Below, in pieces: positions 6,427 through 63,105 of a stretch of DNA of 64,000 nucleotides. The notes beneath the pieces were generated by a model that did no database searches, was not told the origin of the DNA, and saw only the letters and a list, made by a program, of their open reading frames with translations. Numbering within the stretch: position 1 is the first letter of the stretch; each line of letters opens with the position of its first letter. The stretch comes from Siphonodentalium dalli (taxonomy: Eukaryota > Mollusca > Scaphopoda > Gadilida > Siphonodentaliidae): positions 74,054,705-74,118,704 of the forward strand of contig CP136067.1 in NCBI GenBank assembly GCA_032622095.1, given 5' to 3'. A program made the translations under genes and the position numbers.

Positions 6427-6752
6427 GCATTTGTTTCACTTCTGTACGAACAATTGAAAACAGCTGAAAAATGGCTGTGGCCATGACAATTATTTTTCAG
6501 AGCATATGTGGCTGGTACGTAATGGCGGCTTAGACAAGACGGATATTTTCGGCGGGAAATTATTTTGACATAAACTCTTTAATAACTGGCCGATCGGCTT
6601 CAACATTACACCAAATGAGCTGATACCAATACATATTTACAAGTATTGACATTCTATGGTATAAAAAGTACGTTCTTCTCAGAAAAAAAACATTCTGAAA
6701 AACTTTTTCCCTAATTTCGAGGCACTGGACTCATGTTTGTACTGTATACAAC

Positions 6753-16190: not shown

Positions 16191-16722
16191 TATTGGATTT
16201 TACTCTTTGCATTACTAAATCCTTTGGTGCGGGCTACAGGTCGTAGCTTTTGTCGGAACTTCATGAAATTTGTCATGGATGTTAACAATGACATGTAGAT
16301 GGGAAACGAGTCATTTTGGGGTCGTTCAGCCGAAAAATATGGCCGCCTGCAGCCATCTTGGATTTTACTCTTTGCATGACTAAATCCTTTGGCACAGGCT
16401 ACAGGTCGTACCTTTGATTAGATCATTATGAGATTTGTAAAGGCTGTAGATGGGAACAGGTGATTTTGGGGTAATTCGGAAAAAACATGGCTGCCGGTGG
16501 CCATTTTGGAATTTACTCTGCATCACTAAATCATTTGGCACACCATAATCACCACATCCCTGATCCGATCATTATGAAACCTGTCATGAATGTTGATATT
16601 GACATGTACATCTTATCTTACTTAGACATTTCAATTAGCACCTTTCCTATTCCTCCATTTACTGTCAACCATTAAATTATATCCCTACCTAAGTTGAGCT
16701 ACAGTGTCATTGACACTTTCAT
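16191..16722 (+). mobile_element. TAGCTCAAC hairpin element 2, 3' part
   Basis: Resumes the 163-bp core broken at 6426, with about two further units and a diverged third. It ends with AAGTTGAGCTACAGTGTCAT and 'tgacactttcat', the same 3' end as element 1 at 5437. Confidence 0.7.
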
Positions 16723-27636: not shown

Positions 27637-28702
27637 TAGCTCAACTTTACTTTGTAATGTTTGAGCTATTGCCATGGGTTGGTATCTGTGTGTGTGTGTG
27701 TGTGTGTCCATCAACAATTCCCATTAGCAAGTGCAACAGGTCATACCTTTGGTCGGATCATTATGAAATTTGTCATGGCTGTTGACATTGACATGTAAAT
27801 GGAAACGAGTCATTTTGGGTTCATTCGGTGAACAAACATGGCTGCCAGGAAAATCCATTAGCACTGCATTTATTGGAGAATTATTTTTTTTAGGATTACC
27901 TCTGATGAGAGCTATTAAATTTTCCTTGAAAAACATGGCCGCCTGCAGCCATCTTGGATTTTACTCTTTGAGTGACTAAATCCTTTGGCACACCCTACAG
28001 ACCACATCCCTCACCCGATCATCACCAATCTTCATATGGATCTTCGGGGTGATCTCTAGATGAGAGCCTCCTATTTTACCAAAATATTTTGAAAAACATG
28101 GCTGCCAGTGGCCATCTTGGTATTTTCTCTTAGTATGACTAAATCCTTCGGCACACCCTACAGACCACATTTCTCATTCGTCATTTCAAATTTGAATCCT
28201 TATATGCACACCCTGCAGCCTGCATTTATTGGAGAATTTATTTGAAAATTTAGAGGCATGTTTGGAATCACCTCTAGATGGGAGCTATCAAATTTGAACA
28301 ATTTTCAATGAAAAACATGGCCGTCGGCAGCCATCTTGCATTTTACTCTTTGCATGACTAAATCCTTTGCACACCCTACAGACCACATCCCTCATCTAAT
28401 CACCAAACTTCATATGGATCTTTGGGGTGACCTCTAGATGGGAGCCTCCTATTTTGACTGAATTGTTTTGAAAATCATGGCTGCCAGCAGCCATCTTGGA
28501 ATATACTCATTGTATGACTAAATCATTTGGCACACTCTGCAGACCACATCCCTCATCTGATCATCACCAAACTTCATTTGGATCTTTGGGGTCACATCTA
28601 GTTTACTTTCCTTCTTCTTTATCGTTCTATTCACTGCTCAGCAAAAAATTAACTCCTTCCCAAGTTGATCTACAGTGTCATTGACAATTTCATTAAATTT
28701 TG
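27637..28702 (+). mobile_element. TAGCTCAAC hairpin element 3, divergent cores
   Basis: Hairpin TAGCTCAACTTTAC … TTGAGCTA (27637-27668), a GT microsatellite (27690-27708), one core of the 163-bp type, then cores of a second type ('ggcacaccctacagaccaca', 'cttcatatggatct', 'acctctagatgggagc'). A 3' end AAGTTGATCTACAGTGTCAT occurs at about 28661-28695. The array continues beyond it (next feature). Confidence 0.65.
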
Positions 28703-29490
28703 CATCTCACGATTGTGATCACCTGTAGATGGGAGCTATAAAATTTGAAAGATTTTCGATGAAAAACATGGCTGCTGGCAGGCATTTTGGATTTTACTCT
28801 TTGCATGACAAAATCCTTTGGCACACCCACCCTACATGCCACATCCCTCATCCCATCATCACCAAACTTCATATGGATCTTAGGGCTGACCTCTAGATGG
28901 GAGCCGCCTATTTTAACCAAAATTTGTTGAAAAACGTGGCCGCCAATGGCTATTTTACTCTTTTAGGACTAAATCCTTCGGCACAACCTACAGGCCACAT
29001 CTCTCATCTGATCGTCACAAACCTTCATATGAATCTTCGGAGTGACCTCTAGATGAGAGCCTCATAGATGGGAACTATCAAATTTGAAATTTTTTTTATG
29101 CAAAACATGGCCACCGGCAGCCATCTTGGATTTAATCTTTGCATGACTAAATCCTTGGGCACAACCTACTGTCCACATCGCTCATCTGATGATCACCTAA
29201 CTTCATATGGATCTTCGGGGTGACCTCTAGGTGGGAGCCTCCTATTTTGACAGAAATTCGTTGAAAAATATGGCCATCAGCATGCAGCCATCTTGGAATT
29301 TACTCATTGTATGACTAAATCCTTTTGGCGCACCCTACAGACCACATCCCTCATCTGATTATCACCAAACATCATATGGATCTCCGGGTGACCTACAGTT
29401 TATTTTCCTTCTTCTTCATCATTCTATTCATTGCTCAGCAAAAAATTAACTCCTTCCCAAGTTGAGCTACAGTATTTTCATCAAAAAGTG
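28703..29490 (+). repeat. Continuation array with a second TTGAGCTACAGT 3' end
   Basis: Four to five further units of the 'ggcacaccctacagaccaca / catatggatct / gatgggagc' core, ending CCCAAGTTGAGCTACAGTAT near 29455-29475. Two successive 3' ends after one 5' hairpin suggest a tandem dimer that lost its second head, or a nested truncated copy. Confidence 0.6.
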
Positions 29491-30874: not shown

Positions 30875-31389
30875 ATTCAAAACCCCCCACAGCACTGCTG
30901 CAGCCACTACAGTGCTACAATGAAAAAAAAATGGGACTCGATATGGGTGAAATTCTACCTGTTAAAAATCTGTCAAAAAGTGAATTCAAAACCTCCCAAA
31001 GCACTGCTGCAACCGCTACATTGAAAAAAAAGGGACGCGATATGGGTGAAACATGCTTCGTTTTTTCTGCCTGTTAAAAATCTTAGTCAAAAAGTGGATT
31101 CAAAAGCCCCCAAAGCACTGCTGCAACCGCTACAGCGCTACATTGAAAAGAAATGGGATGCGATATTGGTGAAACATGTTTCGTTTCTACCTGTTAAAAA
31201 TCTTAGTCCAAAAGTGGATTCAAAAACCCCCAAAGCACTGCTGCAACCGCTACAGCGCTACATTGAAAAGAAATGGGATGCGATATTGGTGAAACATGCT
31301 TCATTTCTACCTGTTAAAAATCTTAGTCAAAAAGTGGATTCAAAGCACTGCTGCAGCCGCTACAGCGCTGCATTGAAAAACAAGAGGTG
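30875..31389 (+). repeat. 120-bp satellite array, left part
   Basis: Units hold 'ctgttaaaaatcttagtcaa', 'aagtggattcaaaa', 'ccccaaagcactgctgcaac' and 'gatgcgatattggtgaaaca'. Starts at 31071, 31191 and 31311 are exactly 120 bp apart. Because 120 is divisible by 3, the array stays open in frame (31046-31522, 158 codons with a 40-residue period). I treat this as non-coding. The array is cut at about 31390 by a hairpin element and continues at 33405. Confidence 0.8.
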
Positions 31390-33404
31390 GCATCAGAGAT
31401 GCTGTGTCTCGTTTTCGGTGGCTTACCGCCGGTGGCTACCGCCAATTGGTGTGCATCAGTGTCGGAAATATTCTTGGCAAGTATGGAGGACGTTTGTTGA
31501 AGTTATCGTGCTAACGAGCTAAAATTCAAATTTTAGTTGAATCGGATGACGTTTGTTGAAGTTATCGCGCTAACGAGCTCAAAATTCGTACAAAATGACT
31601 ACTTAAGGACCATAACTCTATCAAATTTTATCGGACCGGGCCGGTTTTCTAACTCGTCCGAGGTATTCTTGGGAGACACCTATATATAAAAATTTCAATC
31701 AAATAGGATGATGTTTGTTAAATTATCGCGCTAACGAGCTGAAAATTTGTGAAAAAATGACTAATTAAGGGCCATAACTCTATCAAATTTTATCGGACCT
31801 GGCCGGTTTTTGAACTCGACCGAGATATTCTTGGGAGACACATATAAACCAAATTTCAATCAAATCGGATAACGTTTGTTGAAGTTATCGCGCTAACGAG
31901 CTGAAAATTCGTGAAAAATGACTAATTAAGGGCCATAACTCTATCAAATTTTATCGGACCAGGCCGGTTTTTGAACTCGTCCGAGATATTCTTGGGAGAC
32001 ACCTATATACCAAATTTCAATCAAATCGGATAACGTTTGTTGAAGTTATCGCGCTAACGAGCTGAAAATTCGTGAAAAATGACTAATTAAGGGCCATAAC
32101 TCTATCAAATTTTATCGGACCAGGCCGGTTTTCGAACTCATCCGAGATATTCTTGGGAGACACCTATATACCAAATTTCAATCAAATCGGATAACGTTTG
32201 TTGAAGTTATCGCGCTAACGAGCTGAAAATTCGTGAAAAATGACTAATTAAGGGCCATAACTCTATCAAATTTTATCGGACGAGGCCGGTTTTCGAACTC
32301 ATCTGAGATATTCTTGGGAGACACCTATATACCAAATTTCAATCAAATCGGATAACGTTTGTTGAAGTTATCGCGCTAACGAGCTGAAAATTCGTGAAAA
32401 ATGACTAATTAAGGGCCATAACTCTATCAAATTTTATCGGACCAGGCCGGTTTTTGAACTCGTCCGAGATATTCTTGGGAGACACCTATATACCAAATTT
32501 CAATCAAATCGGATAACGTTTGTTGAAGTTATCGCGCTAACGAGCTGAAAATTCGTGAAAAATGACTAATTAAGGGCCATAACTCTATCAAATTTTATCG
32601 GACCAGGCCGGTTTTCGAACTCATCCGAGATATTCTTGGGAGACACCTATATACCAAATTTCAATCAAATCGGATAACGTTTGTTGAAGTTATCGCGCTA
32701 ACGAGCTGAAAATTCGTGAAAAATGACTAATTAAGGGCCATAACTCTATCAAATTTTATCGGACGAGGCCGGTTTTCGAACTCATCCGAGATATTCTTGG
32801 GAGACACCTATATACCAAATTTCAATCAAATCGGATAACGTTTGTTGAAGTTATCGCGCTAACGAGCTGAAATTTTTTGAAAAATGACTAATTAAGGGCC
32901 ATAACTCTATCAAATTTTATCGGACGAGGCCGGTTTTCGAACTCATCTGAGATATTCTTGGGAGACACCTATATACCAAATTTCAATCAAATCGGATAGC
33001 GTTTGTTGAAGTTATCGCGCTAACGAGCTGAAAATTTGTGAAAAATGACTAATTAAGGGCCATAACTCTATCAAATTTTATCCGACCAGGCCGGTTTTCG
33101 AACTCATCCGAGATATTCTTGGGAGACACCTATATACCAAATTTCAATCAAATCGGATAACGTTTGTTGAAGTTATCGCGCTAACGAGCTGAAAATTCAA
33201 AGGGCCATAACTCTGTAATAAATGTGCGGACGAACCCGATTTTTTGTCTGCAGCTTACGTTCATGGATATGTACTCACACACCATCAATAAACGGTTGAG
33301 TTATAAGCAAAACACGCCGCCCGCCCGTCCGCCGCCCGTCCGCGCCCGCCCGCCCACCGTCCCTCATCAAACTATAAGTCGAGTTTTGAAAAAAAACTCG
33401 ACTA
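31390..33404 (-). mobile_element. AGTCGAG hairpin element (minus strand) inserted in the 120-bp satellite
   Basis: On the minus strand the 5' end is a hairpin AGTCGAGTTTT … AAAACTCGACT (33377-33403). A GC-rich CCGCC/CGCCC microsatellite (33317-33360), an 11-unit 161-bp core array and a unique 3' end near 31390-31500 follow. The flanks 'cattgaaaa' and 'tgggttgtgatatt' fit back into the satellite unit (…gaaaaaatgggatgcgatat…), so it inserted into an A/T-rich site without an evident TSD. No protein is encoded. Confidence 0.72.
31525..33230 (-). repeat. 161-bp core array with 3-unit higher-order structure
   Basis: 'aacgagct' occurs at 31572, 31733, 31895, 32056, 32217, 32378, 32539, 32700, 32861, 33022 and 33183, giving spacings of 161-162 bp. 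Units differ at a diagnostic site: 'ttttgaactcgtccg' (A), 'ttcgaactcatccg' (B), and 'gacgagg…catctg' (C). The order A-B-C-A-B-C'-C-B indicates recent amplification as 483-bp trimers. Units are nearly identical, much younger than the 163-bp array at 2.3-5.3 kb. Confidence 0.85.
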
Positions 33405-34540
33405 AAAATGGGTTGTGATATTTGTTAAACATGCTTCATTTCTCCCTGTTAAAAATTTAAGTCGAAAGTGGATTCAAAACCCCCCAAAGCACTGCTGCAA
33501 CTGCTACATCACTACATTGAACAAATTTGGGATGCGATATGGGAGAAACATGCTTCATTTCTACCTGTTAAAAATCGAAGTCAAAAAGTGGATTCAAAAA
33601 CTCCCACCAAAGCACTCCTGCAACCGATATAGTGCTACATTGAACAAATTTGGGATGCGATATGGGTGAAACATGCTTCATTGCTATCTGTTAAAAATCT
33701 ATTGAAGTAAAAAAGTGGATTCAAAACCCCCAAAGCACGGCTGCAGCCACTACAGTGCTACATTGAACAAAATGGGATGCGATATTGGAGAAACATGCTT
33801 CATTTCTACCTGTTAAAAATCTAAGTCAAAAAGTGGATTCAAAAACTCCCCCCAAAGCACTGCTGCAACCGCTATAGTGCTACATTGAAAAAAGATGGGA
33901 TGCGATATGGGAATTAAAAACATGCTTCGTTTCTACCTGTTAAAAATCTTAGTCAAAAAGTGGATTCAAAACCCCCCAAAGCACTGCTGCAGCTGCTACA
34001 GTGCTACATTGAAAAATATGGGACGTGATAAGGGTGAAACATGCTTCATTTCTACCTGTTAAAAATGTAAGTCAAAACGTGGATTAAAAACTCCCCAAAG
34101 CACTGCTGCAACTGCAGCGCTACATGGAAAAAATTTGGGATGCAATATGGGTATAAAAACATGCTTCGTTTCTACCTGTTAAAAATCTATTGAAGTAAAA
34201 AAGTGCTGCATTGAAAAACAATGGGACACAATATTTGTAAAACGTACATGCTTCATTTCTACCTAAATCTAAGTCAAAAAGTGGATTCAAAACCCCCCAA
34301 AGCGCTGCTGCAGTGAAAAAAATGGGTCGCGATATTTGTAAAACATGCTTCATTTCTATAGTTAAAAATCTAAGTAAAAAAGTGGATTTAAAACCCCCAA
34401 ACCACTGCTGCAACAGCTACAGTGCTACATTGAAAACAAATGGGAAGCGATATTTGTGAAACATGTGCTTCATTTATATCTGTTACAAAGCTAAGTAGAA
34501 AGAAGTGAATTCAAACTCCCCCAAAGCACCTACCCACCCC
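33405..34540 (+). repeat. 120-bp satellite array, right part
   Basis: Continues the units of 30875-31389 ('acatgcttcatttctacctg', 'aagtggattcaaaaccccc', 'agcactgctgcaaccgctac') with more indels, about nine units. Period slips and partial units are frequent after 34100. Confidence 0.75.
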
Positions 34541-37263: not shown

Positions 37264-38723
37264 CTCTAAAGTTCTTGAGCGGATGGTTCTGTATCAATTA
37301 AGGAATCATCTGAATAAAAACAATCTCAATGAACCTTTTCAGTCAGCTTATCGAAAGGACCACAGTACGGAAACTGCTTTAATTCGCATCACGAACGATC
37401 TACTGTGTGCCGCAGATGATGGCCTTGTCTCCGCCATAGCATTCCTCGACCTTTCAGCGGCATTCGATACGATTTGACCATCAGATTCTCACCCAACGCT
37501 TGCCAGATACATTTGGAGTTTCTAGCACAGTCCTCTCCTGGTTCACTTCTTATCTAACTGGTCGGACGCAAATTGTGGTGATTGGTGACGCGTGTTCGAA
37601 ATCGCGATCTATTCAATACGGTGTTCCACAGGGGTCAGTTCTGGGACCCGTTTTATATTCGTCATACACACAACCTCTCGGAAGCATAATAGCTGATAAC
37701 GGTATCAGCTACCACATGTATGCTGATGATACCCAGATGTTCATTTCTTTTAAGCAGTGCGATATAGACTTAAAACTCGCACATTTGCAGTCAGGGGTGA
37801 TGCAAGTCAAACAGTGGATGGAGGTGAACAAACTTCACATCAACGAGAACAAAACTGAACTAATGTTTTGTGGAACGGATCAGCATTTAAAAGCTATCAA
37901 GGTTACCTCCCTACGCATTGGCAAGGCCGACATCAAATTCTCAGATAACGCCAACAATTTAGGAGTGATTTTAGACAAAGGACTGTCCATGAAGTCCCAT
38001 ATAAACACACTGTGCAAGTCCTTATTTCTGGAACTTCGGCGTATTTCTCATATGCGATCACATCTGTCGGTAGAATCCACGAAGACTTTGATCTCTTCAT
38101 TTGTATTTTCACGACTGGATTATTGCAATGCTCTATTCGCTGGTCTGCCACAAGATCAATTGGCAAAGCTGCAGAGAATAATTAACATTTCGGCTCGCAT
38201 TGCTCTACGAAAACATAAATTTGACCACGTCACACCTCTTCTCGCGAAACTTCACTATCTTCCAATTGAAGCTCGAATTGATTATAAATGTGCCACTTTT
38301 TGTTATAAGAAATTCTCAAATGACATCACAAAGCCTTTGCCGGTTTATATTGACTCTATTCTCCATATGTACTCTCCGCCGTGCGAATTGTGATCAGAAG
38401 ATCTAAATCTGATGGCTGTTCCTAGACATGACTCGGAAAACTACAGAAGACGATCATTTGAATATCATGCTCCCTCCGTCTGGAATGGGCTACAGGCCGA
38501 CACAAAGAAAGCCGATACCATGGACACTTTTAAAACATTACTTAAATCGGAACTTTTCGAATTCTACTATGGAAACATCGTCCCTGAGAGTGATGCCTCT
38601 TAGTTCTGCATATGTTTATTACGTGACCCACTTGTATATTGCATATTTGTGCGTGAACTTGTGTTGTGGCCGAGCGCTTTGGGCCTTTTGGGAAAAGCGC
38701 TATATAAATGTTCTCTATTATTA
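37264..38723 (+). pseudogene. 5'-truncated L2-like LINE (RT to 3' end), TSD TTAATGAGT
   Basis: Starts inside RT (SKVLERMVLYQL, QSAYRKDHSTETALIRI, AFLDLSAAFDTI then stop/shift at about 37477), continues HYGI-equivalent text, YGVPQGSVLGPVLYSSYTQP, an intact YADD box (YHMYADDTQMFISF), a palm/thumb region (RLDYCNALFAGLP, HKFDHVTPLLAKLHYLP) and, after another shift at about 38395, a C-terminus ending WNGLQADTKKADTMDTF. The 3' UTR has the stem-like GAGCGCTTTGGGCC … AAGCGCTATATAAATG and a TTATTA tail, typical of L2-type ends. The 9-bp TSD TTAATGAGT is at 37255-37263 and 38724-38732. The N-terminal endonuclease is absent: a 5' truncation. Confidence 0.88.
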
Positions 38724-45683: not shown

Positions 45684-46805
45684 ATGGCAAGCCGTTTTCA
45701 CATTTTTGATTGATTTAGACTTAAGTCCAATTATTTGGACTTAAGTCCAAATGAATTGGACTTAAGTCCAATTAGCGAATTGATTTGGACTTAAGTCCAA
45801 ATCAATTGGACTTAAGTCCAATTATTTGGACTTAAGTCCAATTATTGGACTTAAGTCCAAATAATTGGACTTAAGTCCAAATAATTGGACTTAAGTCCAA
45901 TAATTGGACATTTGGACTTAAGTCCAATTATTTGGACTTAAGTCCAATTATTTGGACTTAAGTCCAATTAGTGAATTGATTTGGACTTAAGTCCAATTCA
46001 TCTGGTTTGAAACGATAGTCCCCTTCTTTGTAATGGTATATTCCTGCAAGTTTTGATTGACAGTCAAACTCCGTACTAACCAGGGCATTCCTGACTCCAA
46101 GACTAAGTCCGTACGTCCCCTTTGCCACGTGGCTTGTTTTTGGCATGCCGAGATTGAAAATGTTTCGAATCCGAATTGGCATCTTAATAAATGCTAACTG
46201 CATGCATGAATGAAGTAAAATTAATTCACGACTTGATTCAATTGTTATTTGACAGCATGTAGTGTAGGCTACACGCAGTTTCGTTTATTGCATTTACTAA
46301 GTGTCTTATTTGTATAATTTGCTCGATTTTCAAAGTCAAAATTGTTGATAGGATCTGGTCCACATCGAGCTGATTCATTATATATGTTGAGAAAGGTAAC
46401 AATTAACAAGATCAACAAGAATTAGACCCAAATGTAAACGGCCATTTTCCCACAACTCCGCCCTATGAGCAAAACCAGACCTGCTTAATATCTGATGGGG
46501 GTGTTTCTTATACAGATGAATTGGACTTAAGTCCAAATGAATTGTACTTAAGTCCAAATACCACATAATTGTGAATTCGGCGAGGAATTGGACTTAAGTC
46601 CAAATAGATGAAAATATCGGTATTTGGACTTTAATAAGTCCAAATCAATTGGACTTAAGTCCAATTCCTCGCCGAATTCACAATTATGTGGTATTTGGAC
46701 TTAAGTCCAATTCGCTATTTGGACTTAAGTCCAATTATTTGGACTTAAGTCCAAATAATTGGACTTAAGTCTAAATCAATCGAAAATGTGAAAACGGCTT
46801 GCCAT
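45684..46805. mobile_element. TIR element with 8-bp TSD and about 22 copies of the palindrome TTGGACTTAAGTCCAA
   Basis: Perfect 8-bp duplication ACTATTGT at 45676-45683 and 46806-46813. TIRs of at least 55 bp begin ATGGCAAGCCGTTTTCACAT on both strands with one mismatch. Inside each end is an array of the 16-bp perfect palindrome (about 13 on the left to 46000, about 9 on the right from 46515), spaced by AATTATTT-like linkers. A further 50-bp inverted pair ('taccacataattgtgaattc' … its complement) surrounds 46553-46695. An 8-bp TSD is compatible with hAT and some other superfamilies. The 500-bp middle has no transposase. Confidence 0.82.
45958..46203 (-). CDS. Unrecognised short ORF inside the palindrome-rich element
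   Basis: 81 codons, MQLAFIKMPIRIRNIFNLGM … STEFDCQSKLAGIYHYKEGD. Its C-terminus runs into palindrome units (LDLSPNQ), so at least that end is not a natural protein. The string 'caatcaaaacttgcagga' recurs as 'cagtcaaaacttgtagga' just outside the element at 39933-41096, hinting that both elements sit beside or have captured related sequence. I assign no function; it may be spurious. Confidence 0.2.
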   Translation of the reverse strand: MQLAFIKMPIRIRNIFNLGMPKTSHVAKGTYGLSLGVRNALVSTEFDCQSKLAGIYHYKEGDYRFKPDELDLSPNQFTNWT

Positions 46806-50671: not shown

Positions 50672-51056
50672 GACCACTATTAAAGCGTCCTGTAACTTAT
50701 ACTATATGTGCGAATGTCCGTGTTCTATTTGTATGGTCCTTAGGTGTACAAAATAAGCCTGGCACTGAAAGAGTTAAGAATGGAATTGGTAAATATCTTG
50801 CTATTATTGTAAAGGTATACTATGAAAGCAAGTTATCAAAACACAAAGGAGTACCATATACTATCTTTAAAAAAAAATCTAAACTTGACCAAAATTGCAT
50901 ACACACTCTGTGACAAAGACTGTCTTTATACCTGGAAATAATATTTGGTTATATTCACCAAGGCCACATATACGCGAAATGTACTATATTTTCTGCAATT
51001 GCATTACAGTGTGTAACCATTGTCCCTAATGTTACGCATATCTGCTGGACACACAA
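50672..51056. other. Unassigned left flank of the 3.9-kb transposon
   Basis: Contains 'actgaaagagTTAA' at about 50766, a piggyBac-end-like string without an identified partner. The last three bases (CAA) are the TSD of the next element. Confidence 0.3.
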
Positions 51057-51904
51057 TAGTCCAGGAGATCGGGAGGTAGTGTTGCTCATATTGACGGACA
51101 AGCTGCGACCATGTTATTTTTAATGTTTTAGGTATGGTAATGAAGAAAAATCATGATAGCAAGAACAAATTTGTAGCCTTCTTTGTTTTTTTTCGATTTT
51201 TTGGGCATTTTTCGATATTTTAAGCCCAAAATTTTCATTTTTTTTTCAATGTGTAAAGTTTCATTTTAGTATGATTTTGGTGATTCAGTTGAATAGTAAT
51301 TGTGTTAATAATGTTAAATAACTAATTGTGCTAAAAAATTGAAGAATTTAAATGTTTTTGTTTCAATTTTTTTACCATTTTTTTTACTTTTTTACGCAAA
51401 ATCGTCCAAATTGCAACCATTTCATCTTAGTATGATTTTAAGGTTAAAATTCACCATAATTATTTTAATATTGTTAAATAATTTACAACTTGGCTTCTAC
51501 AATGTTTATAAATGGATTTAAGAAGGTTTCTACTTGTTTTCTAAGTTGAGGGGGGTCTAATTCAAATCCAATTAAACATTGTACTGTTCAAAATTAGATA
51601 AATTTCTTAAGGCATATGGTAGATATACGTAACTAGTTTCCAAAACATATACATATGCCTTTCTATCCTGTGCGTTATGCACGCGAGTCGTATTTTACAA
51701 ATTAAATTATGATGAAAAACCCTGAATTTTGGGTGTGGTCACATTTGTGGTCATAATATTCCGATTAGAGAGTGGATGGACATGGGGCATGCGACACTAT
51801 GCAGTATATATGTATATAACAAGCATGACATGAGACATTAGTATCTTTCTACTGAACTGTGCTTCCAGAGTTATCAGGAATCGAGTATCGGTGTTATTTC
51901 TTAC

Positions 51905-51918
51905 CCCCCCCCCCCCCC
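51905..51918. repeat. Poly-C tract
   Basis: A homopolymer inside transposon copy 1. The matching poly-G in copy 2 (about 60816-60828) differs slightly in length. Confidence 0.85.
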
Positions 51919-52125
51919 AAAAATGGTCAATTTTAAAACGGGGTATGTGGGTCAAAGGACCACTGGGAGATAATAGGATGACCAATGACTTCTATATTTC
52001 TATCGTATCACAGTAAAGCTTTTTTTGTAAAATTGGCGCAGTTTACATAATCAAAGTTCAATTTTCTTTACAATTATATGTTACAGGCAACTAATTATAT
52101 AGAGTTACGCTTCTTGAAACTCGAG

Positions 52126-52482
52126 TCAGCATAACAAAACAATCTGGCTGCTGATTGGTTGATTATCATTGAGGGAAATATCCCTAATCGGGAACATAAA
52201 ATTATAGCCTACGTAAATATGGCGATCGTGTATGTTTATATGTCCAGGAAGAGTCTGGTGGTATCTAGAAGTTACGGAAGGGGTCTGGATATGTTTATGC
52301 TGCTGATTTTTGTGCAGTAAATGGGGTAGTTGTGGAAATGCAAGACTATCGTTTGAAAAAAATACCGAAAATGGCGCGTTTGTTGTCACATACTGGTGCA
52401 GCGGATGACGTGCTAAGGGAAAATTGACCACTTGAAGTTCAAATAGGCTTAACCCATAGCCGGCGGGACTTTTAGTTAACAC
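52126..52482 (-). CDS. Unrecognised 118-codon ORF of the 3.9-kb transposon (copy 1)
   Basis: The frame MLTKSPAGYGLSLFELQVVN … to stop has no domain I recognise, no transposase signature, no signal peptide and no membrane segment. Copy 2 has the same frame at 60252-60608 with a single difference (Asn to Asp at 'VGYxFMF'). The copies are near-identical overall, so this is not evidence of selection. Possibly fortuitous. Confidence 0.25.
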   Translation of the reverse strand: MLTKSPAGYGLSLFELQVVNFPLARHPLHQYVTTNAPFSVFFSNDSLAFPQLPHLLHKNQQHKHIQTPSVTSRYHQTLPGHINIHDRHIYVGYNFMFPIRDISLNDNQPISSQIVLLC

Positions 52483-52679
52483 TGTCGCCTATGGAAAATA
52501 ATTAGGTGTTTGTAACCTATAGATACGAAGCTCCTATATTATTTATATATTACTATATTTAAATCAGATTTATGCATACAGTCGACGTCGAAACAAAACA
52601 TGAATGTTCCGATTATTCGTGACATTCAAGTTAAATGTTCAATAATAGAAAATTATACTGTGACTGGTTCATTCAACAT

Positions 52680-53800
52680 GAAGTTAGTCAAGGTGTATCT
52701 TTATTAATAACAGTATACAGTACTATCAAAATCAGAAGAAACATGTGACCCTGGGTACTTATCTCCCAGTGCTGTGGCAAAACAAAAATTGACAATGCAT
52801 TCTTAAACCCAAACCTGTGGCGGTTTTTCATACAATGCACCGAAGCTTCGTGCCATGTACCGTGACGTGTCAGAACTCCAGGAATATACCACCATATGAC
52901 ATCATATGGTAACGTTAACAAACATTGAATGGTCACCAGAAACCCGGATATTAATAATTTCAGATCATAATTAGCATCGCATTATATATTAACCCATCGA
53001 GGAATATGTCATAATGACACACACTATATTACACCTACTATATAACTGCTCCCTCCCTGACACAGGGCTACATATAAGAAGTTTATCGATGTCTACTTAA
53101 TGAGAGTATACAGTTCCGTCAAAATATGACCGAAAATGTGACCTCGCATCGTTAACCCCAATCTGTGGCGATTTTTCATACAATTTACCGAAGCTTCGTG
53201 CCACGTACCGTCAAATGGCATCAAACGTTGAATGGTCACCATAAACTTTGATATCAGTCATTTCAGATTGTAATTATCATGGAATTATATATTAAACCAT
53301 GGTGTAATTATGTCAAAATGACACACTATATTACATCCACCCTATATAACTGCTTCCTCCCTGACACAGTGCTACATACAAGAAGTGTATCCATGTCTAC
53401 TTAATGAGAGCATATAGTTCTGTCGAAATCTGGCGAAAAATGTGACCTTGCATCATTAACCCCAAATCTGTGGCGGTTTTTCATCCTATGTACCGAAGCT
53501 TCGTGACATGTACCGAAGCTTGGTGACGTGTCAGAACTTCTAAAATATACCCCATCGGGACATCAAATGGTATCAAACGTTGAATGGTCACCAGAAATCT
53601 CGATATTAGTCATTTCAGACCATAATAACATAGCATTATATATTAATCCATCGAGAAATATGTCAAAATGACACACTATATTACACCCACCCCTATATAA
53701 CTGCGTCCTCCCTGACACAGGCTGCATATAAATTATTTATCCATGTCTACTTAATGAGAGTATAGAGTTCTGTCAAAATCGGGCGAACAATTTGGTCTAT
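52680..53800. repeat. Tandem units of 300-350 bp with 'accgaagcttcg' palindromes
   Basis: Repeating landmarks 'cttaatgagagta' (53098, 53401, 53753), 'ctccctgacacag' (53066, 53364, 53708), 'ttgaatggtcacc' and 'accgaagcttcgtg' show about 3.3 diverged units. The same set appears inverted in copy 2 (about 58920-60050). AAGCTT sits at the centre of each short palindrome. Confidence 0.7.
52688..52936 (-). CDS. Unrecognised 82-codon ORF of the 3.9-kb transposon (copy 1)
   Basis: MTIQCLLTLPYDVIWWYIPG … ends with a hydrophobic segment (MFLLILIVLYTVI). It lies within the first tandem unit. The counterpart at 59789-60037 differs at two residues (QC/QR, IPG/IHG). No recognised family; probably fortuitous. 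Confidence 0.2.
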   Translation of the reverse strand: MTIQCLLTLPYDVIWWYIPGVLTRHGTWHEASVHCMKNRHRFGFKNALSIFVLPQHWEISTQGHMFLLILIVLYTVINKDTP

Positions 53801-54964
53801 AAATCCCGTAGTGTGACACATTTAATATAGACCAAAACAATAAACACCTTTCAACCCAAAGATAGTTACATTTTAATTGCAAAAAATGGTCTAAACATGA
53901 AAAGTTAATTTTTGCCGATATTTAAGCCAAGTTTTTGAGAGAAAAGTCCAATATTTTTGGTGATGTCAGTGGTGACAATAGTAACAAATTAACCATGGCA
54001 CATCAGGCATGTTAGTATTCAATGTATAGAAGGCAGAATAGCCAATTTTGTACATCATCCACAACTTGTAATCGATTGCAGAACACGCTGGGGCAATATT
54101 TATCATTTTCCATATTTTGGCAGCCATTTTGGCAGCCATTTTGAGCCAAAGTAAGAATTTTGGTTCCAGTGAGTTGGAATATTCATAGGTATAATCATAT
54201 GCATCACTTACATTACAAAGTTCTGTTCATTTCTTGTTAAAATATGACTATAATCCCAATTGTGATTTTTTTGTGAAATTTTATACTGCGTTCTGTAAAT
54301 TCGAATTTTTGAGGGAACGGAAGGGGCTAGGAACACAAAAAGTGCATATTTAATTGCCCCAATGATCAGTTACACAAAATACAAAATAAAGTCGCATTAC
54401 TCAACCAGTTCCAAACAGCATGAATCGATCTAGAAGATATTTGTAAAAAAAAGTCATATTTTCAACTTCCGGCAGCCATATTGGTGGCCATCTTGGATGG
54501 TGAGTTTCAATTTTGCCCCAAAAAAGTGACATTATGTCTTAGCTTCACGAAAATATATACATTTGTATACATTTTACAAGATTTTCACCGCTTAATTTGC
54601 ATAAAACTGACTTGAGGGTCTGGAGTCTATACGGCCACTTTTTGTTCTTGCTAACATTGCTTAAAAGTTGAAGGACATAATAAGGAACAAAATGAGTTGG
54701 GAGAAGTTAAGTCCCAGGGGGTGCAAGGATATCCATATTAGATCCCGGACTAGTAGTAATATGACGTCGCTGGAAAATTCTTTCATTTTCGGTCATCGGG
54801 TAGGTCAATAAAAACACATTTTTCGCCAATTAAGCTACAAATTCACCACAGCTATCATGGATTTTCGTAATCTACATATATTTTACTACAAAATTAGACC
54901 GGATAGCACTTGTCCGTCAAAATGAGCAACATTTGTTATTTCTTGGGGTCGATCTCCTGGACTA

Positions 54965-55592
54965 CAACCATAAATAGCAACATTATCATGTCAATAGTCA
55001 ATGCTGAAATAACAGCTTTAATTGCTGGTCATCTGATATTTTGCACAAGTAGATGGGTTGTATTGGTAAGATATTTTCAAACAACAAGATACTCAAAACT
55101 AATATTGTACATTGCGTAACAGCATATTCCAGTTGCAAGTTGCCCACTGAATTAATTTGAACAAAATCGTCTACTAATACACCGGTTTGGTATCAGCAGG
55201 AAAATTAGTCTTATATAACATGTAAATGTACTGTCTATTTGATCTGATGAGATGGAGTGTTAATCTTTTGAAGTGATGGGGGTTTATTTGCAGTATAATA
55301 AACATAATGCAATATACATGCAATGTTTATTATCACAGACTGCTGAAAATTTCGGAAATGTAACTGCTATTTATTTCCAGAAAATGGTCAACACTTAAAC
55401 TGTATTTCTTATTTATTCAACCTAACCAGTCACATTCTCCGCCCGCACAGTTTGACATAAAATATATAGTATACTCTATATGGGCAATTAGCAGTTGGGG
55501 ATACCATTATAAAGATTAGGTGCCTTGACTGCCATGTGTTATTGTCTCACTGGTTTGTGTTATCATACAAGTACCGGTGTAACACGTCATCT
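54965..55592. other. Spacer between the two transposon copies, left part
   Basis: AT-rich, nothing recognised. It starts with the CAA target duplication. This DNA is the flank into which copy 1 inserted and is not LINE-derived, so the two copies have different insertion contexts. Confidence 0.4.
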
Positions 55593-55612
55593 TCCCCCCC
55601 CCCCCCCCCCGG
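55593..55612. repeat. Poly-C tract
   Basis: A run of about 18 C between 'catcttc' and 'ggtacaaac'. Confidence 0.9.
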
Positions 55613-55967
55613 TACAAACATTTAGGTTTTTATTGGGTAATAAATTATAACTCCCCATATGGTGCTATCCACCGGCCTTTGCTCCTTATAAGCCTTCTTG
55701 TTACAGTACTCTCTCAGAAATCATTGTGTTAGCCCACAAACGGTATCTAATTTGTCCAAAGCTACAAAATAAATCAACACCAAGATTTCCAAGATGAATT
55801 CAATACGAAATTATTTGAAGAGTAAATACTGAAACTACGCTTCATCACAGCTAGTACTTTGGCACTGCTTAAATGGTGAATCTGCCTGCTTTATCGAGGC
55901 CATCTTTCAGTTACATGCACTACTACTATGGATTAGGCTGGGAAAGCTGAGAATGTGAATTTATAAT

Positions 55968-56885
55968 TATACCCCCTTTTAAAAAAAAAGGGGGGTATAC
56001 TGTTTTGCACCTGCCCGTGCGTGTGTGTGTGCGTGTGTACACATAACTTGAACAGTAGTGCTCGGATCTCAATGAAATTAGGAGGAGATTAAATAGAGGG
56101 TGCCATTGTTTTGTTCGGATTTTCCATTCTAGAGTTATTCATCTTTGTTTATCTTGAAATGTTGGATTTTTGGTCCGTCTGGTGTCTGTTCATGTAATAA
56201 CTTGATCAGTAGTGCTCGGATCTCAATGAAATTTTGTATGGATATTCACTACTATGAGGGCATTCAATAGAGGGTTACATCGTTTTGTTCGGATTTTCAA
56301 CGCTGGGATCTCAATGAAATTTGGTATGGATGTTCACTACTATAAGGACATTAAAAAGAGGGTTACATTGTTTTGTTCGGATTTTCCATTCTAGAGTTAT
56401 TCATCTTTGTTTATCTGGAAATGTTGGCTGTTTGGTCTGTCTGGTGTCGGTTCATGTCGTAACTTCAACATTTGTGCTGGGATCTCAATGAAATTTGGTA
56501 TGGATGTTCACTACTATGAGGACATTCAATAGAGGGTTCCATTGTTCTGTTCCGCTTTTCCATTCTAGATTTATTTATCTTTTTTTATCTGGAAATGTTG
56601 GCTGTTTGGTCCATCCGATGTCTGTTCAGCTCATAACTTGAACAGTAATGTTAGGATCTCAATGAAAGTTTGTATGGATGTTCACCACTATGAGGACATT
56701 TAATGGCACATTCAAATGTTTGTTTTGGTTTTTTGTTCTATAGTTATTCATCTTTGTCTATATGAAAATGCTGATTTTTGGGTCCATCTGTCTGAGTATA
56801 GCCATCATATTAAGTTATAGATATGCTCACACTAGGCGGTATGCCACGAGGGGGTATGTACAGTCCATCTCTTGTTATGTAAGTA
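55968..56885 (+). mobile_element. TATACCCCC hairpin element with tandem cores
   Basis: 5' hairpin TATACCCCC … GGGGGTATA (55968-55999), a GT microsatellite (56018-56038), then about five cores sharing 'acttgaacagtagtgctcgg', 'atctcaatgaaatttggtat', 'ggatgttcactactatgagg' and 'ctagagttattcatctttgt', spaced about 90-175 bp. The 3' end is near 'ccacgagggggtatgtacag', whose GGGGTAT echoes the head. Non-coding. It lies in the spacer between the inverted transposon copies. Confidence 0.68.
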
Positions 56886-57214
56886 TAAACCTACATATCA
56901 TGTTTTCATGGAAGACTGCTCCATTTGTACACACACGCTTAATTATGAGAGTCAAAAATGATCTCCATACTATTTTGTACAACAGGTGAAAAACTCAAAT
57001 ATCATATTTTCCCTCAATGGGTTATTTAAATTAAATGCTGTAACAGATGCAACGAAATGTGATCTGAGGGGTTTAAATTCAGAAAAATTTTCCCACCGAC
57101 GAGATGGGACACCCCTCTCGAGCTCTCCCCATCTCCAGCCTGTGACCCCTCATATACAAACTTCTTTCCTACGCCCCTGATACCCCCAATAAATATAGCT
57201 TCCTACGCCCCTGG

Positions 57215-57478
57215 CTGAGGTGTTACACCTGACACGGGGTGTGGGGCTGAGGTGTGCCTAAGGTGTGTCTGGGGTGTGGGGCCAAATATTTAAATGAGGC
57301 ATGAGGTGTGGTTGAGGTGTGCTTTTGATGTGTGCCTGAGGTGTGGATGAGGTGTGCCTCAGGTGCATGGTCTGAGGTGTGCTTGAGGTGTGCCCATGGA
57401 AGTGTGCTTACTGAGGTGTGGGTAGAGGTGTACCTGAGGTGTGGTTAGAGGTGTGTCTGAGGTGTGGGTAGAGGTGAC
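57215..57478 (+). repeat. GAGGTGTG minisatellite
   Basis: About 20 imperfect repeats of 'gaggtgtgNN' with variable linkers, strongly purine-rich on the plus strand. The same word family recurs at 62860-63100 in both orientations. Confidence 0.85.
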
Positions 57479-57640
57479 TAATTTTGTCTCAGTTTGTCTT
57501 GTCCACATGAATTCATTCTGTATATTTTGAACATGTTCCTGGTGACTTTCGACTATTTATATTAGTGGCCTTGTAGTGTTCCTAGTGTTATTGGAAGATT
57601 AAGGTATATGTGTTCCAATGAGTAGCTTCAGATCACAACT

Positions 57641-57724
57641 GAACACTTGGATAAATTGCAAAAAGTAATTAATGTTGCTGCAAGGATTGTTTCCCGCAAA
57701 CCAAAATTTTCACATATAACACCA
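57641..57724 (+). pseudogene. L2-like LINE, 5'-truncated upstream part (split by transposon copy 2)
   Basis: 28 codons, EHLDKLQKVINVAARIVSRK … SHITP, align with the QLAKLQRIINISARIALRKH … DHVTP segment of the L2-like LINE at 37264-38723. Sequence upstream of about 57640 is not LINE-like, so this is the 5' truncation point. The frame continues at 61680. Confidence 0.8.
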
Positions 57725-60700
57725 TAGTCCAGGAGATCGACCCCAAGAAATAACAAATGTTGCTCATTTTGACGGACAAGTGCTATCCGGTCTAATTTTG
57801 TAGTAAAATATATGTAGATTACGAAAATCCATGATAGCAGTGGTGAATTTGTAGCTTAATTGGCGAAAAATGTGTTTTTATTGACCTACCCGATGACCGA
57901 AAATGAAAGAATTTTCCAGCGACGTCATATTACTACTAGTCCGGGAGCTAATATGGATATCCTTGCACCCCCTGGGACTTAACTTCTCCCAACTCATTTT
58001 GTTCCTTATTATGTCCTTCAACTTTTAAGCAATGTTAGCAAGAACAAAAAGTGGCCGTATAGACTCCAGACAAAATGGCGTCCATCATGGCCGCCGTTTT
58101 TCAGACCAGACCCTCAAGTCAGTTTTATGCAAATTAAGCGGTGAAAATCTTGTAAAATGTATACAAATGTATATATTTTCGTGAAGCTAAGACATAATGT
58201 CACTTTTTTGGGGCAAAATTGAAACTCACCATCCAAGATGGCCACCAATATGGCTGCCGGAAGTTGAAAATATGACTTTTTTTTACAAATATCTTCTAGA
58301 TCGATTCATGCTGTTTGGAACTGGTTGAGTAATGCGACTTTATTTTGTATTTTGTGTAACTGATCATTGGGGCAATTAAATATGCACTTTTTGTGTTCCT
58401 AGCCCCTTCCGTTACCTCAAAAATTCGAATTTACAGAACGCAGTATAAAATTTTACAAAAAAATCACAATTGGGATTATAGTCATATTTTAACAAGAAAT
58501 GAACAGAACTTTGTAATGTAAGTGATGCATATGATTATACCTATGAATATTCCAACTCACTGGAACCAAAATTCTTACTTTGGCTCAAAATGGCTGCCAA
58601 AATGGCTGCCAAAATATGGAAAATGATAAATATTGCCCCAGCGTGTTCTGCAATCGATTACAAGTTGTGGATGATGTACAAAATTGGCTATTCTGCCTTC
58701 TATACATTGAATACTAACATGCCTGATGTGCCATGGTTAATTGTTACTATTGTCACCACTGACATCACCAAAAATATTGGACTTTTCTCTCAAAAACTTG
58801 GCTTAAATATCGGCAAAAATTAACTTTTCATGTTTAGACCATTTTTGCAATTAAAATGTAACTATCTTTGGGTTGAAAGGTGTTTATTGTTTTGGTCTAT
58901 ATTAAATGTGTCACACTACGGGATTTATAGACCAAATTGTTCGCCCGATTTTGACAGAACTCTATACTCTCATTAAGTAGACATGGATAAATAATTTATA
59001 TGCAGCCTGTGTCAGGGAGGACGCAGTTATATAGGGGTGGGTGTAATATAGTGTGTCATTTTGACATATTTCTCGATGGGTTAATATATAATGCTATGTT
59101 ATTATGGTCTGAAATGACTAATATCGAGATTTCTGGTGACCATTCAACGTTTGATACCATTTGATGTCCCGATGGGGTATATTTTAGAAGTTCTGACACG
59201 TCACCAAGCTTCGGTACATGTCACGAAGCTTCGGTACATAGGATGAAAAACCGCCACAGATTTGGGGTTAATGATGCAAGGTCACATTTTTCGCCAGATT
59301 TCGACAGAACTATATGCTCTCATTAAGTAGACATGGATACACTTCTTGTATGTAGCACTGTGTCAGGGAGGAAGCAGTTATATAGGGTGGATGTAATATA
59401 GTGTGTCATTTTGACATAATTACACCATGGTTTAATATATAATTCCATGATAATTACAATCTGAAATGACTGATATCAAAGTTTATGGTGACCATTCAAC
59501 GTTTGATGCCATTTGACGGTACGTGGCACGAAGCTTCGGTAAATTGTATGAAAAATCGCCACAGATTGGGGTTAACGATGCGAGGTCACATTTTCGGTCA
59601 TATTTTGACGGAACTGTATACTCTCATTAAGTAGACATCGATAAACTTCTTATATGTAGCCCTGTGTCAGGGAGGGAGCAGTTACATAGTAGGTGTAATA
59701 TAGTGTGTCATTATGACATATTCCTCGATGGGTTAATATATAATGCGATGCTAATTATGATCTGAAATTATTAATATCCGGGTTTCTGGTGACCATTCAA
59801 CGTTTGTTAACGTTACCATATGATGTCATATGGTGGTATATTCATGGAGTTCTGACACGTCACGGTACATGGCACGAAGCTTCGGTGCATTGTATGAAAA
59901 ACCGCCACAGGTTTGGGTTTAAGAATGCATTGTCAATTTTTGTTTTGCCACAGCACTGGGAGATAAGTACCCAGGGTCACATGTTTCTTCTGATTTTGAT
60001 AGTACTGTATACTGTTATTAATAAAGATACACCTTGACTAACTTCATGTTGAATGAACCAGTCACAGTATAATTTTCTATTATTGAACATTTAACTTGAA
60101 TGTAACGAATAATCGGTACATTCATGTTTTGTTTCGACGTCGACTGTATGCATAAATCTGATTTAAATATAGTAATATATAAATAATAATTAATGTACCG
60201 AAGCTTCGTATCTATAGGTTACAAACACCTAATTATTTTCCATAGGCGACAGTGTTAACTAAAAGTCCCGCCGGCTATGGGTTAAGCCTATTTGAACTTC
60301 AAGTGGTCAATTTTCCCTTAGCACGTCATCCGCTGCACCAGTATGTGACAACAAACGCGCCATTTTCGGTATTTTTTTCAAACGATAGTCTTGCATTTCC
60401 ACAACTACCCCATTTACTGCACAAAAATCAGCAGCATAAACATATCCAGACCCCTTCCGTAACTTCTAGATACCACCAGACTCTTCCTGGACATATAAAC
60501 ATACACGATCGCCATATTTACGTAGGCTATGATTTTATGTTCCCGATTAGGGATATTTCCCTCAATGATAATCAACCAATCAGCAGCCAGATTGTTTTGT
60601 TATGCTGACTCGAGTTTCAAGAAGCGTAACTCTATATAATTAGTTGCCTGTAACATATAATTGTAAAGAAAATCAAACTTTGATTATGTAAACTGCGCCA

Positions 60701-61676
60701 ATTTTACAAAAAAAGCTTTACTGTGATACGATAGAAATATAGAAGTCATTGGTCATCCTATTATCTCCCAGTGGTCCTTTGACCCACATACCCCGTTTTA
60801 AAATTGACCATTTTGGGGGGGGGGGGGTAAGAAATAACACCGATACTCGATTCCTGATAACTCTGGAAGCACAGTTCAGTAGAAAGATACTAATGTCTCA
60901 TGTCATGCTTGTTATATACATATATACTGAATAGTGTCGCATGCCCCATGTCCATCCACTCTCTAATCGGAATATTATGACCACAAATGTGACCACACCC
61001 AAAATTCAGGGTTTTTCATCATAATTTAATTTGTAAAATCCGACTCGCGTGCATAACGCACAGGATAGAAAGGCATATGTATATGTTTTGGAAACTAGTT
61101 ACGTATATCTACCATATGCCTTAAGAAATTTATCTAATTTTGAACAGTACAATGTTTAATTGGATTTGAATTAGACCCCCCTCAACTTAGAAAACAAGTA
61201 GAAACCTTCTTAAATCCATTTATAAACATTGTAGAAGCCAAGTTGTAAATTATTTAACAATATTAAAATAATTATGGTGAATTTTAACCTTAAAATCATA
61301 CTAAGATGAAATGGTTGCAATTTGGACGATTTTGCGTAAAAAAGTAAAAAAAATGGTAAAAAAATTGAAACAAAAACATTTAAATTCTTCAATTTTTTAG
61401 CACAATTAGTTATTTAACATTATTAACACAATTACTATTCAACTGAATCACCAAAATCATACTAAAATGAAACTTTACACATTGAAAAAAATTATTAAAA
61501 TTTTGGGCTTAAAATGTCGAAAAATGCCCAAAAAATCGAAAAAAAAACAAAGAAGGCTACAAATTTGTTCTTGCTATCATGATTTTTCTTCATTACCATA
61601 CCTAAAACATTAAAAGTAACATGGTCGCAGCTTGTCCGTCAATATGAGCAACACTACCTCCCGATCTCCTGGACTA
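57725..61676 (-). mobile_element. Unclassified 3.9-kb TIR transposon, copy 2, inverted (TSD CCA)
   Basis: The same element as 51057-54964 on the opposite strand, with ends TAGTCCAGGAGATCG (57725) and its complement (61676). The target duplication CCA (57722-57724 and 61677-61679) is fixed by the host LINE reading frame: removing the element and one CCA restores HITP-LLQEIHYLP as in the other L2-like copy. Differences from copy 1 include about 37 extra bases near 58070-58108 ('aaaatggcgtccatcatggc'), a short extra 'aatgtaccgaagcttcg' near 60190, and homopolymer lengths. No transposase. Confidence 0.88.
60252..60608 (+). CDS. Unrecognised 118-codon ORF of the 3.9-kb transposon (copy 2)
   Basis: Counterpart of 52126-52482 with one residue different. 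No recognised domain. Confidence 0.25.
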   Translation: MLTKSPAGYGLSLFELQVVNFPLARHPLHQYVTTNAPFSVFFSNDSLAFPQLPHLLHKNQQHKHIQTPSVTSRYHQTLPGHINIHDRHIYVGYDFMFPIRDISLNDNQPISSQIVLLC

Positions 61677-62190
61677 CCATTGCTACAAGAAATACACTAC
61701 CTTCCTATTCGTGCACGCATAGACTACAAGTGTGCGTCATTCTGTTATAAAAAATCAGAATCTAGTTCAAGTATTCTCCCTGTATTGCCTCAATATTTTG
61801 ATAAACTTTTAAGTATATGTTCCACCTACGAATCTGAGGTCAAAGGCACAAGCTCTAATGGATATTCCATCAAAAAATTAAAAAACTTATGGCGATAGAG
61901 CATTTGATTCGTATGCGCCAAATGTTTGGAACTCACTGAGACACGACACAAGATTTGCAAACTCTCTGACCGAATTCAAAACTTTGTTAAAGAGTGAATT
62001 ATTCTGTGCTCACTATGGGGAAGTTACCTCAGATGTTGTTTAATTATTTTGATGTATGTGTATATCTATAGGTATGTGGTGTGTATAGATGTATGTATAT
62101 CACGTGTGATAGAGAGCAGGGTACTAGTAGGAATGTAAGCGCTCTGGGCCATATGGGATAAAGCGCTATATAAAAACTATTTATTATTAT
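61677..62190 (+). pseudogene. L2-like LINE, downstream part with 3' end
   Basis: Continues the LINE frame (LLQEIHYLPIRARIDYKCAS, FCYKK), shifts at about 61885, then reads DRAFDSYAPNVWNSLRH and EFKTLLKSELF. The 3' UTR has GCGCTCTGGGCC … AAGCGCTATATAAAA and a TTATTA tail to about 62200, the same end structure as the LINE at 37264-38723. Confidence 0.82.
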
Positions 62191-62859: not shown

Positions 62860-63105
62860 AGACCATGTGGTGTGTTGCGGACCTGTGAGGTGTGCTTGTG
62901 GCAGAATGTTTTTTGTTAGAGTCCCTTAATATGTGTGTTTGTGGTGTCCTTGTTATAAGCTATGATATTTTACTATTTCTATGAGGTGTGGATGAGGTGT
63001 GGTGAAGAAGTATGAGGTGTGGTTAAGGTGTGCATTGCCGATATTTGCATATCATGTACCACACCTCAACCACACCCCATCCACACCTCACAGGGAGGTG
63101 TAACA
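62860..63105. repeat. GAGGTGTGG minisatellite with inverted CCACACCTC block
   Basis: Plus-orientation 'gaggtgtggatgaggtgtgg' units (62980-63035) are followed after about 30 bp by 'ccacacctcaaccacacccc' units (63058-63095), forming a potential hairpin. It ends 'gaggtgtaacac', similar to 'gaggtgttacac' at 57220. Confidence 0.75.

Follow-up and report, generated by a model that had tools for sequence, protein, structure and literature searches.

Two Inverted Copies of a 3.9-kb Element

The window, i.e., the whole stretch of 64,000 nucleotides from Siphonodentalium dalli that was analysed (assembly GCA_032622095.1, contig CP136067.1), contains two copies of a transposon in opposite orientations:

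51057-54964, + strand: transposon copy A, 3908 bp, without coding signal
57725-61676, - strand: transposon copy B, 3952 bp, inverted relative to A, without coding signal

The two copies are separated by a spacer of 2,760 bp. When they were aligned, 3879 of 3959 columns were identical. The differences comprised 22 substitutions, which is 0.56% of the 3901 ungapped columns (99.4% identity over ungapped columns), and 58 gap columns, 40 of which form one gap in copy A between GTCTGG direct repeats. The coordinates, the inverted orientation, the near-identity and the 2.76-kb spacer had been given in an earlier note on this DNA, and the same values were obtained when they were measured again.

Coding Potential and Internal Repeats

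The interior had been proposed to be non-coding, and this view was corroborated. The longest stop-to-stop open reading frame of B comprises 120 aa, a length that 33 of 200 dinucleotide-shuffled versions of B also reached, and none of the 22 ORFs of at least 50 aa in B reached the cut-off in a Pfam search (0/22). The pair thus looks non-autonomous. A PDB sequence search with the 120-aa ORF (1 of the 22 ORFs) yielded 0 matches at E values up to 1. A weak Pfam match to RE_BsaWI on an ORF of 66 aa (E 0.00057, 20.3 bits compared to a cut-off of 26.2) was taken as a chance match among 22 ORFs. The whole window had 0 matches to Rfam at gathering thresholds, and ARAGORN (bacterial code) returned 0.

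The interior contains the following repeats and motifs:

52784-53794, + strand: internal array in A, with about three diverged units, each roughly 300-350 bp long, and CCGAAGCTTCG palindromes
54123-54495, + strand: four clustered GCCATNTTG motifs in A
58071-58606, - strand: five GCCATNTTG motifs in B

The four and five GCCATNTTG motifs compare with a mean of 0.11 and a maximum of 1 in 200 shuffles of B. We take these motifs to resemble YY1 sites, and they could serve as promoter elements. The clustered motifs, together with two 3.9-kb arms of such high identity at such a short distance, would be in line with a transcription of the pair as one long inverted repeat, which might give rise to double-stranded RNA and small RNAs. 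However, the same arrangement is equally expected from two nearby insertions, and such a hairpin, which would be compatible with the explanation preferred below, is considered to be only a slight possibility on the basis of the sequence.

Inverted Ends and Inner Blocks

The outer ends of both copies are perfect inverted repeats of 15 bp, TAGTCCAGGAGATCG. Each of them is accompanied by an inner block of 23 bp, which lies 8 bp inward of the outer terminal inverted repeat (TIR) at end 1 and 18 bp inward at end 2:

51057-51071, + strand: 15-bp outer TIR at end 1 of A
51080-51102, + strand: inner block of A (23 bp), 8 bp inward of the outer TIR
54909-54931, - strand: inner block of A (23 bp), 18 bp inward of the outer TIR
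54950-54964, - strand: 15-bp outer TIR at end 2 of A
57725-57739, + strand: outer 15-bp TIR of B, element end 2
57758-57780, + strand: inner block of B (23 bp), 18 bp inward of the outer TIR
61631-61653, - strand: inner block of B (23 bp), 8 bp inward of the outer TIR
61662-61676, - strand: outer 15-bp TIR of B, element end 1

The inner blocks of the two ends agree at 22 of 23 bases, and the spacers between outer and inner repeats are not conserved. The 15-bp ends and a second block at unequal distances from each end had been noticed before and were confirmed. A terminal direct repeat was not found in A, and an LTDR-INT-LTDR structure is missing.

Target-Site Duplications and a Reconstructed Pre-insertion Site of Copy B

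Both copies are flanked by exact direct repeats of 3 bp, and copy B is inserted within a relic of a LINE reverse-transcriptase gene:

51054-51056: target-site duplication (TSD) CAA, left of A
54965-54967: TSD CAA, right of A
57722-57724: TSD CCA, left of B
61677-61679: TSD CCA, right of B
57635-57724, + strand: LINE reverse-transcriptase relic, left part, split by B (stretch used in the test)
61677-61799, + strand: LINE reverse-transcriptase relic, right part, starting with the TSD copy (stretch used in the test)

The chance that two exact 3-bp flank matches arise is (1/64)^2 by simple arithmetic, or about 2 in 10,000, and the near-identity over 3.9 kb comes on top of this. Deletion of B together with one CCA restored a single reading frame, of which 41 of 67 columns were identical to a second RT ORF in the window. 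The empty site reconstructed in this way gave one alignment of 85.9 bits in a single frame. For A, no empty site was found within the window. The TSD of 3 bp that the earlier note had claimed for each copy is thereby strengthened by the in-frame reconstruction for B; the evidence comes from only two copies and a single empty site that was reconstructed, and 4 bp, or 5 bp with one mutation, are formally possible. In the nucleotide alignment of the empty site of B, two mutually compensating gaps of one base each were observed within about 15 bp to the right of the junction, and the protein alignment is free of gaps near the junction.

A TSD of 4 bp (ACAA/ACCA, with element ends TAG..GGACT) fits as well, because each left TSD is preceded by an A, which is also the last base of both elements. 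A TSD of 5 bp would imply an element AGTCC..GGACT with ends AGT..ACT, as in Transib/RAG-like elements or in some KolobokP families. Copy B carries a perfect ACCAT, and AG..CT agrees with the RR..YY termini of KolobokP (PMC9587614), but copy A requires one mutated TSD base (ACAAT/ACAAC). Rough likelihood ratios of about 110, 365 and 780, calculated for three mutation rates, favoured 3 bp over 5 bp. In addition, long terminal direct repeats are missing, the LTDRs of the two Corbicula families named in that description measure 473 and 664 bp, far below 3.9 kb, and the elements lack the CAC start described for protostome RAG-like TIRs (PMC7204232). A 5-bp duplication is therefore regarded as unlikely.

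The ends can also be read as TA | GTCC ... GGAC | TA, that is, as an element GTCC..GGAC of Tc1/mariner type whose duplicated TA target is perfect in both copies, in which case the CAA and CCA repeats would be shared by chance. However, the corresponding TA empty site of B broke the LINE alignment in two pieces of 39.3 bits (frame 1) and 52.8 bits (frame 3). Furthermore, this reading does not account for the outer 3-bp repeats that flank A and B, and the doubled TA falls inside these repeats. It is thus very improbable.

When the 1-kb flanks of A and B were compared, no cross-similarity was detected at an E value of 0.01, and the inverted similarity ends at the element ends. The unrelated flanks and the unequal TSDs (CAA and CCA) indicate that A and B are two separate insertions, as the earlier note had concluded. 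Near-identity and opposed arrangement could also result from a single insertion that was later copied in a large inverted (palindromic) duplication, or from an assembly artefact, but the halt of the similarity at the element ends, the flanks and the TSDs make this highly implausible.

A Probable Non-autonomous Cut-and-Paste Transposon

The classification as TIR transposons was upheld, as inverted ends and a TSD of fixed length were present in 2 of 2 copies. Taken together, A and B very probably represent a non-autonomous TIR-type cut-and-paste transposon, dependent on a DDE/D transposase, that inserted separately, recently and in opposite orientations at two sites 2.76 kb apart; the insertions would presumably also be recent when counted in years. 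An autonomous relative at another site of the genome may supply the transposase in trans. This enzyme would bind to the 23-bp inner blocks, which are putative binding sites, and would cut at the TA..TA outer ends. The element would then enter a 3-bp staggered cut, and gap repair would yield the 3-bp TSD. The spacing of 8 and 18 bp would offset the inner blocks by about one helical turn in their distance from the ends, and this offset could enable a single transposase complex to distinguish the two ends.

Weighed against published superfamily descriptions, the pair would be a new family of a known class. The superfamily had been called not obvious in the earlier note. It is still not fixed, but it could be narrowed, because the TSDs are unlike those of PHIS, IS3EU/GingerRoot, RAG-like and Tc1/mariner elements. 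Academ occurs in animals. Most likely the element is AcademX-like, with Zator as the second candidate, and the fit concerns TSD length only. According to PMC10045372, AcademX, a lineage of the Academ superfamily, has TSDs of 3 or 4 bp and Zator has TSDs of 3 bp; CAA and CCA match both. Repbase groups non-autonomous elements by an equal TSD length and by an alignment of the termini over positions 1-11 (PMC4455052). In contrast, the Academ and the Zator transposases are missing from both copies. An Academ-type transposase was found in none of the 22 ORFs of B, an absence that is expected anyway in a non-autonomous copy. Of the molluscs covered by one study, bivalves are the group to which Academ, Sola and Zator "appear restricted" (PMC10294476).

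Several other groups were considered. IS3EU/GingerRoot elements share the TA..TA termini of A and B and usually have a 6-bp TSD (PMC10045372), but a 6-bp TSD was present in 0 of 2 copies, and a comparison of the 6-bp flanks showed mismatches at 3 of 6 positions for A and 4 of 6 for B. Within PHIS, the TSDs described are TWA for PIF/Harbinger, ANT for Pangu, CWG for NuwaI, TNA for NuwaII and AT for ISL2EU, with none for Spy (PMC4482050); CAA and CCA, which read TTG and TGG on the complementary strand, fit none of these. ProtoRAG of B. belcheri has bipartite ends with an inner block at spacings of 27 and 31 bp (PMC8289069), and thus resembles the present element, in which the distance between terminal and inner block likewise differs between the two ends. 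Protostome RAG-like TIRs begin with CAC and have 5-bp TSDs (PMC7204232), whereas here the ends are TAG, the TSD is 3 bp and the spacings are 8 and 18 bp. Transib/RAG-like elements were rejected, as the ends read TAG or AGT, not CAC, and a 5-bp repeat is perfect in 1 of 2 copies. KolobokP has 5'-RR..YY-3' termini; its LTDRs carry TIRs of 11-18 bp, the solo LTDRs of some families have TSDs of mainly 3-4 or 4-5 bp, KolobokP itself was detected in nearly every bivalve genome examined, and the LTDRs of two named Corbicula families have the lengths cited above (PMC9587614). A solo LTDR, a common element in bivalves, would be similar in its TIRs and its TSDs of 3-5 bp, but it has RR..YY and not TA..TA termini and, at the lengths cited, is much shorter than 3.9 kb. 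KolobokP was rejected, because long terminal direct repeats are lacking and RR..YY is obtained only under the disfavoured 5-bp reading.

The pair looks like ordinary passenger transposons, with a transposase family that is not fixable from the window alone. It is conceivable, albeit improbable, that an undescribed DDE/D superfamily is represented, which would be characterized by TA..TA ends, 3-bp TSDs and bipartite ends with inner blocks offset by one helical turn (8 versus 18 bp). Such ends would constitute a counterpart of the 12/23 end-pairing rule that had evolved independently. The end signature is well bounded by the 15-bp end, the 23-bp inner block, the 8/18-bp spacing, the 3-bp TSD and one empty site, and it offers a means to seek the autonomous partner in the host genome. 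If this partner belongs to a little-studied superfamily, the unequal spacing would provide a simple way to test how end pairing is controlled outside the RAG lineage; if not, the element would be a routine entry in a repeat library.

Related Sequences

Elsewhere in the window, the only blastn matches at an E value of at most 0.1 were two of 20-23 bp. With up to four substitutions allowed, the 15-mer end occurred two further times in the window and the inner block did not occur again. A literature search with the first 9 bases of the end as a word retrieved no transposon paper among the matches listed (titles and abstract starts), and no paper joining Zator, Academ, 3-bp and TSD was found. In IMG/VR, the inner block and the internal repeat motif had 0 matches each. 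The 15-bp end matched 38 loci there, with one exact match apiece, some of them sharing their context. A blastn comparison of B with these 38 loci revealed nothing beyond 17-22 bp at the ends, and by a rough estimate the matches were taken as chance. In prokaryote genomes, a 20-base end pattern had one match, exact over 21 bp, in a Chloroflexi MAG contig, of which 3,356 bp were examined and lacked the rest of the element; roughly estimated, chance alone would yield about one match of this kind.

Two inverted copies of one transposon

Two copies of one element with terminal inverted repeats were aligned:

51057-54964, plus strand: copy A, 3908 bp, inverted relative to copy B
57725-61676, minus strand: copy B, 3952 bp, inverted relative to copy A

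When copy A was aligned with the reverse complement of copy B using MAFFT, 3879 of the 3959 columns were identical, with 22 substitutions and 58 gaps, which verified the near-identical inverted pair described in the earlier note; the observation of that note as a whole was correct. Among the matches listed in a self-comparison of the window, two inverted matches jointly spanned the element from end to end, the split falling at a 40-bp gap in copy A that is flanked by GTCTGG direct repeats. The copies are separated by a spacer of 2,760 bp (54965-57724), and no similarity was found at E 0.01 between the 1-kb flanks of the two sites. Copies A and B are two separate insertions, and their proximity and opposed orientation are compatible with local hopping or with chance. 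The low divergence of 0.56% suggests that the element has been active recently.

Ends and target-site duplications

The 15-bp outer end TAGTCCAGGAGATCG is present at both ends of both copies, and the ends of the element are bounded. In each copy a 23-bp inner block, TGTTGCTCATWTTGACGGACAAG, lies 8 bp further inward at one end and 18 bp at the other, just as a second block at differing distances had been noted before. The inner blocks of the two ends match at 22 of 23 positions, while the 8-bp and 18-bp spacers do not resemble each other. Conservation of the block at unequal distances suggests a putative transposase-binding site. The 10-bp difference would correspond to about one helical turn, which in one family only may be coincidence. 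A DDE/D transposase supplied in trans would move the element by cut-and-paste.

Exact 3-bp repeats flank both copies, CAA around copy A and CCA around copy B, and the target-site duplications (TSDs) thus differ, as had been claimed. Copy B is inserted into a reverse-transcriptase relic. Its empty site was reconstructed by deleting copy B and one CCA, and was compared with the other reverse-transcriptase open reading frame (ORF) of the window:

37440-38393: reverse-transcriptase ORF (Pfam RVT_1)

With 300 bp of flank per side 49 of 94 columns were identical, and with shorter flanks 41 of 67 (85.9 bits, single frame), the site being inferred by paralogy with no empty allele observed. The protein alignment was gap-free at the junction; two mutually cancelling one-base gaps in the nucleotide alignment, no more than about 15 bp to the right of it, were read as aligner placement. 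No empty site for copy A was found within the window.

The target duplication is 3 bp long, with the proviso that the empty site of copy B sets only the total added length and not its division between end bases and TSD. A 4-bp TSD (ACAA/ACCA) with ends TAG..GGACT had the same likelihood as 3 bp in a base-frequency calculation, but it demands ends that differ by one base in length. A 5-bp TSD with ends AGT..ACT requires one mutated base at copy A, and the same type of calculation favoured 3 bp over it by about 110, 365 and 780 at three mutation rates. A TA duplication at copy B was rejected, because the TA site breaks the reverse-transcriptase protein alignment into two frames.

Coding capacity and internal repeats

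The Pfam scan (E up to 0.1) covered the 22 stop-to-stop ORFs of at least 50 aa in copy B, to which copy A is near-identical. For 19 ORFs no match was obtained, and the other three had one match each, all under the curated cut-offs (ESM4, E 0.05; Vma12, E 0.09; RE_BsaWI, E 0.00057), which were taken as chance given 22 short ORFs. The longest ORF, of 120 aa, was equalled or passed in 33 of 200 dinucleotide shuffles of copy B. The copies are without coding signal, in agreement with the non-coding interior reported earlier, and coding could still be via short spliced exons.

In the middle of the element lie some three diverged units, each about 300-350 bp long, with CCGAAGCTTCG palindromes. The last third contains GCCATNTTG motifs, four in copy A and five in copy B; shuffling copy B 200 times gave 0.11 on average and never more than 1. 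The motif resembles YY1 sites. It occurs 41 times across the window, nine times inside the two copies and otherwise at sites including satellite arrays, and is therefore common to several repeats and not specific to the element. Satellite-like arrays with a unit of roughly 164 bp, many units with CAGCAGCCATCTTGG, lie at 2349-6426, and the GCCATNTTG word in such arrays recurs within the transposon; related sequence is found at 16193-16608 and 27929-29473.

Relationship to known superfamilies

The element is ordinary in kind, an apparently non-autonomous family with terminal inverted repeats that is unassigned to a superfamily and was matched to no named family. In viral and prokaryote sequence collections only short matches were found, which were taken as chance. 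Known groups were compared as described in the cited papers. AcademX, with TSDs of 3-4 bp, and Zator, with 3-bp TSDs (PMC10045372), agree with the element on TSD length alone. The earlier remark that the superfamily is not obvious was supported. By judgement, an AcademX-like element is the leading assignment, held tentatively at somewhat below even chances; another known superfamily is possible but less probable, Zator is unlikely, and an undescribed superfamily is very improbable. In the molluscs analysed in one study, bivalves are the group to which Academ, Sola and Zator "appear restricted", Academ being one of the commonest DDE/D superfamilies (PMC10294476); this would be relevant only if the host were a bivalve. 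No Academ transposase was found in the 22 ORFs of copy B, which in a non-coding copy does not speak against the Academ assignment.

IS3EU/GingerRoot elements share the TA..TA termini, but their TSD is usually 6 bp (PMC10045372), versus 3 bp here. PHIS was rejected, as CAA and CCA fit none of its groups' TSDs (TWA, ANT, CWG, TNA, AT or none; PMC4482050). Protostome RAG-like elements, with CAC ends and 5-bp TSDs (PMC7204232), were likewise rejected on both features. KolobokP was rejected on termini and structure, as it ends in RR..YY and carries long terminal direct repeats; TSDs of its solo repeats are 3-4 or 4-5 bp (PMC9587614).

Other repeats and ORFs in the window

A LINE at 13010-15836 has endonuclease and reverse-transcriptase domains broken up over three ORFs (Pfam Exo_endo_phos, RVT_1). 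A 334-aa ORF at 6699-7703, with sub-threshold, mostly coiled-coil-like Pfam matches, is possibly a LINE ORF1-type protein. About ten 161-bp units with 96% matches form an array at 31540-33198, close to 120-123-bp arrays at 31014-31344 and 33427-34189. Arrays of the palindrome TTGGACTTAAGTCCAA are located at 45713-45970, a near-palindrome of about 250 bp, and at 46516-46771. Between copies A and B, the region 55970-56850 holds a stretch that looks palindrome-like by eye (TATACCCCC...GGGGGGTATA) and, after it, arrays with units of 88 and 174 bp. A TGAGGTGTGG-type minisatellite lies to the left of copy B (57298-57476), and its reverse complement to the right (63058-63090).
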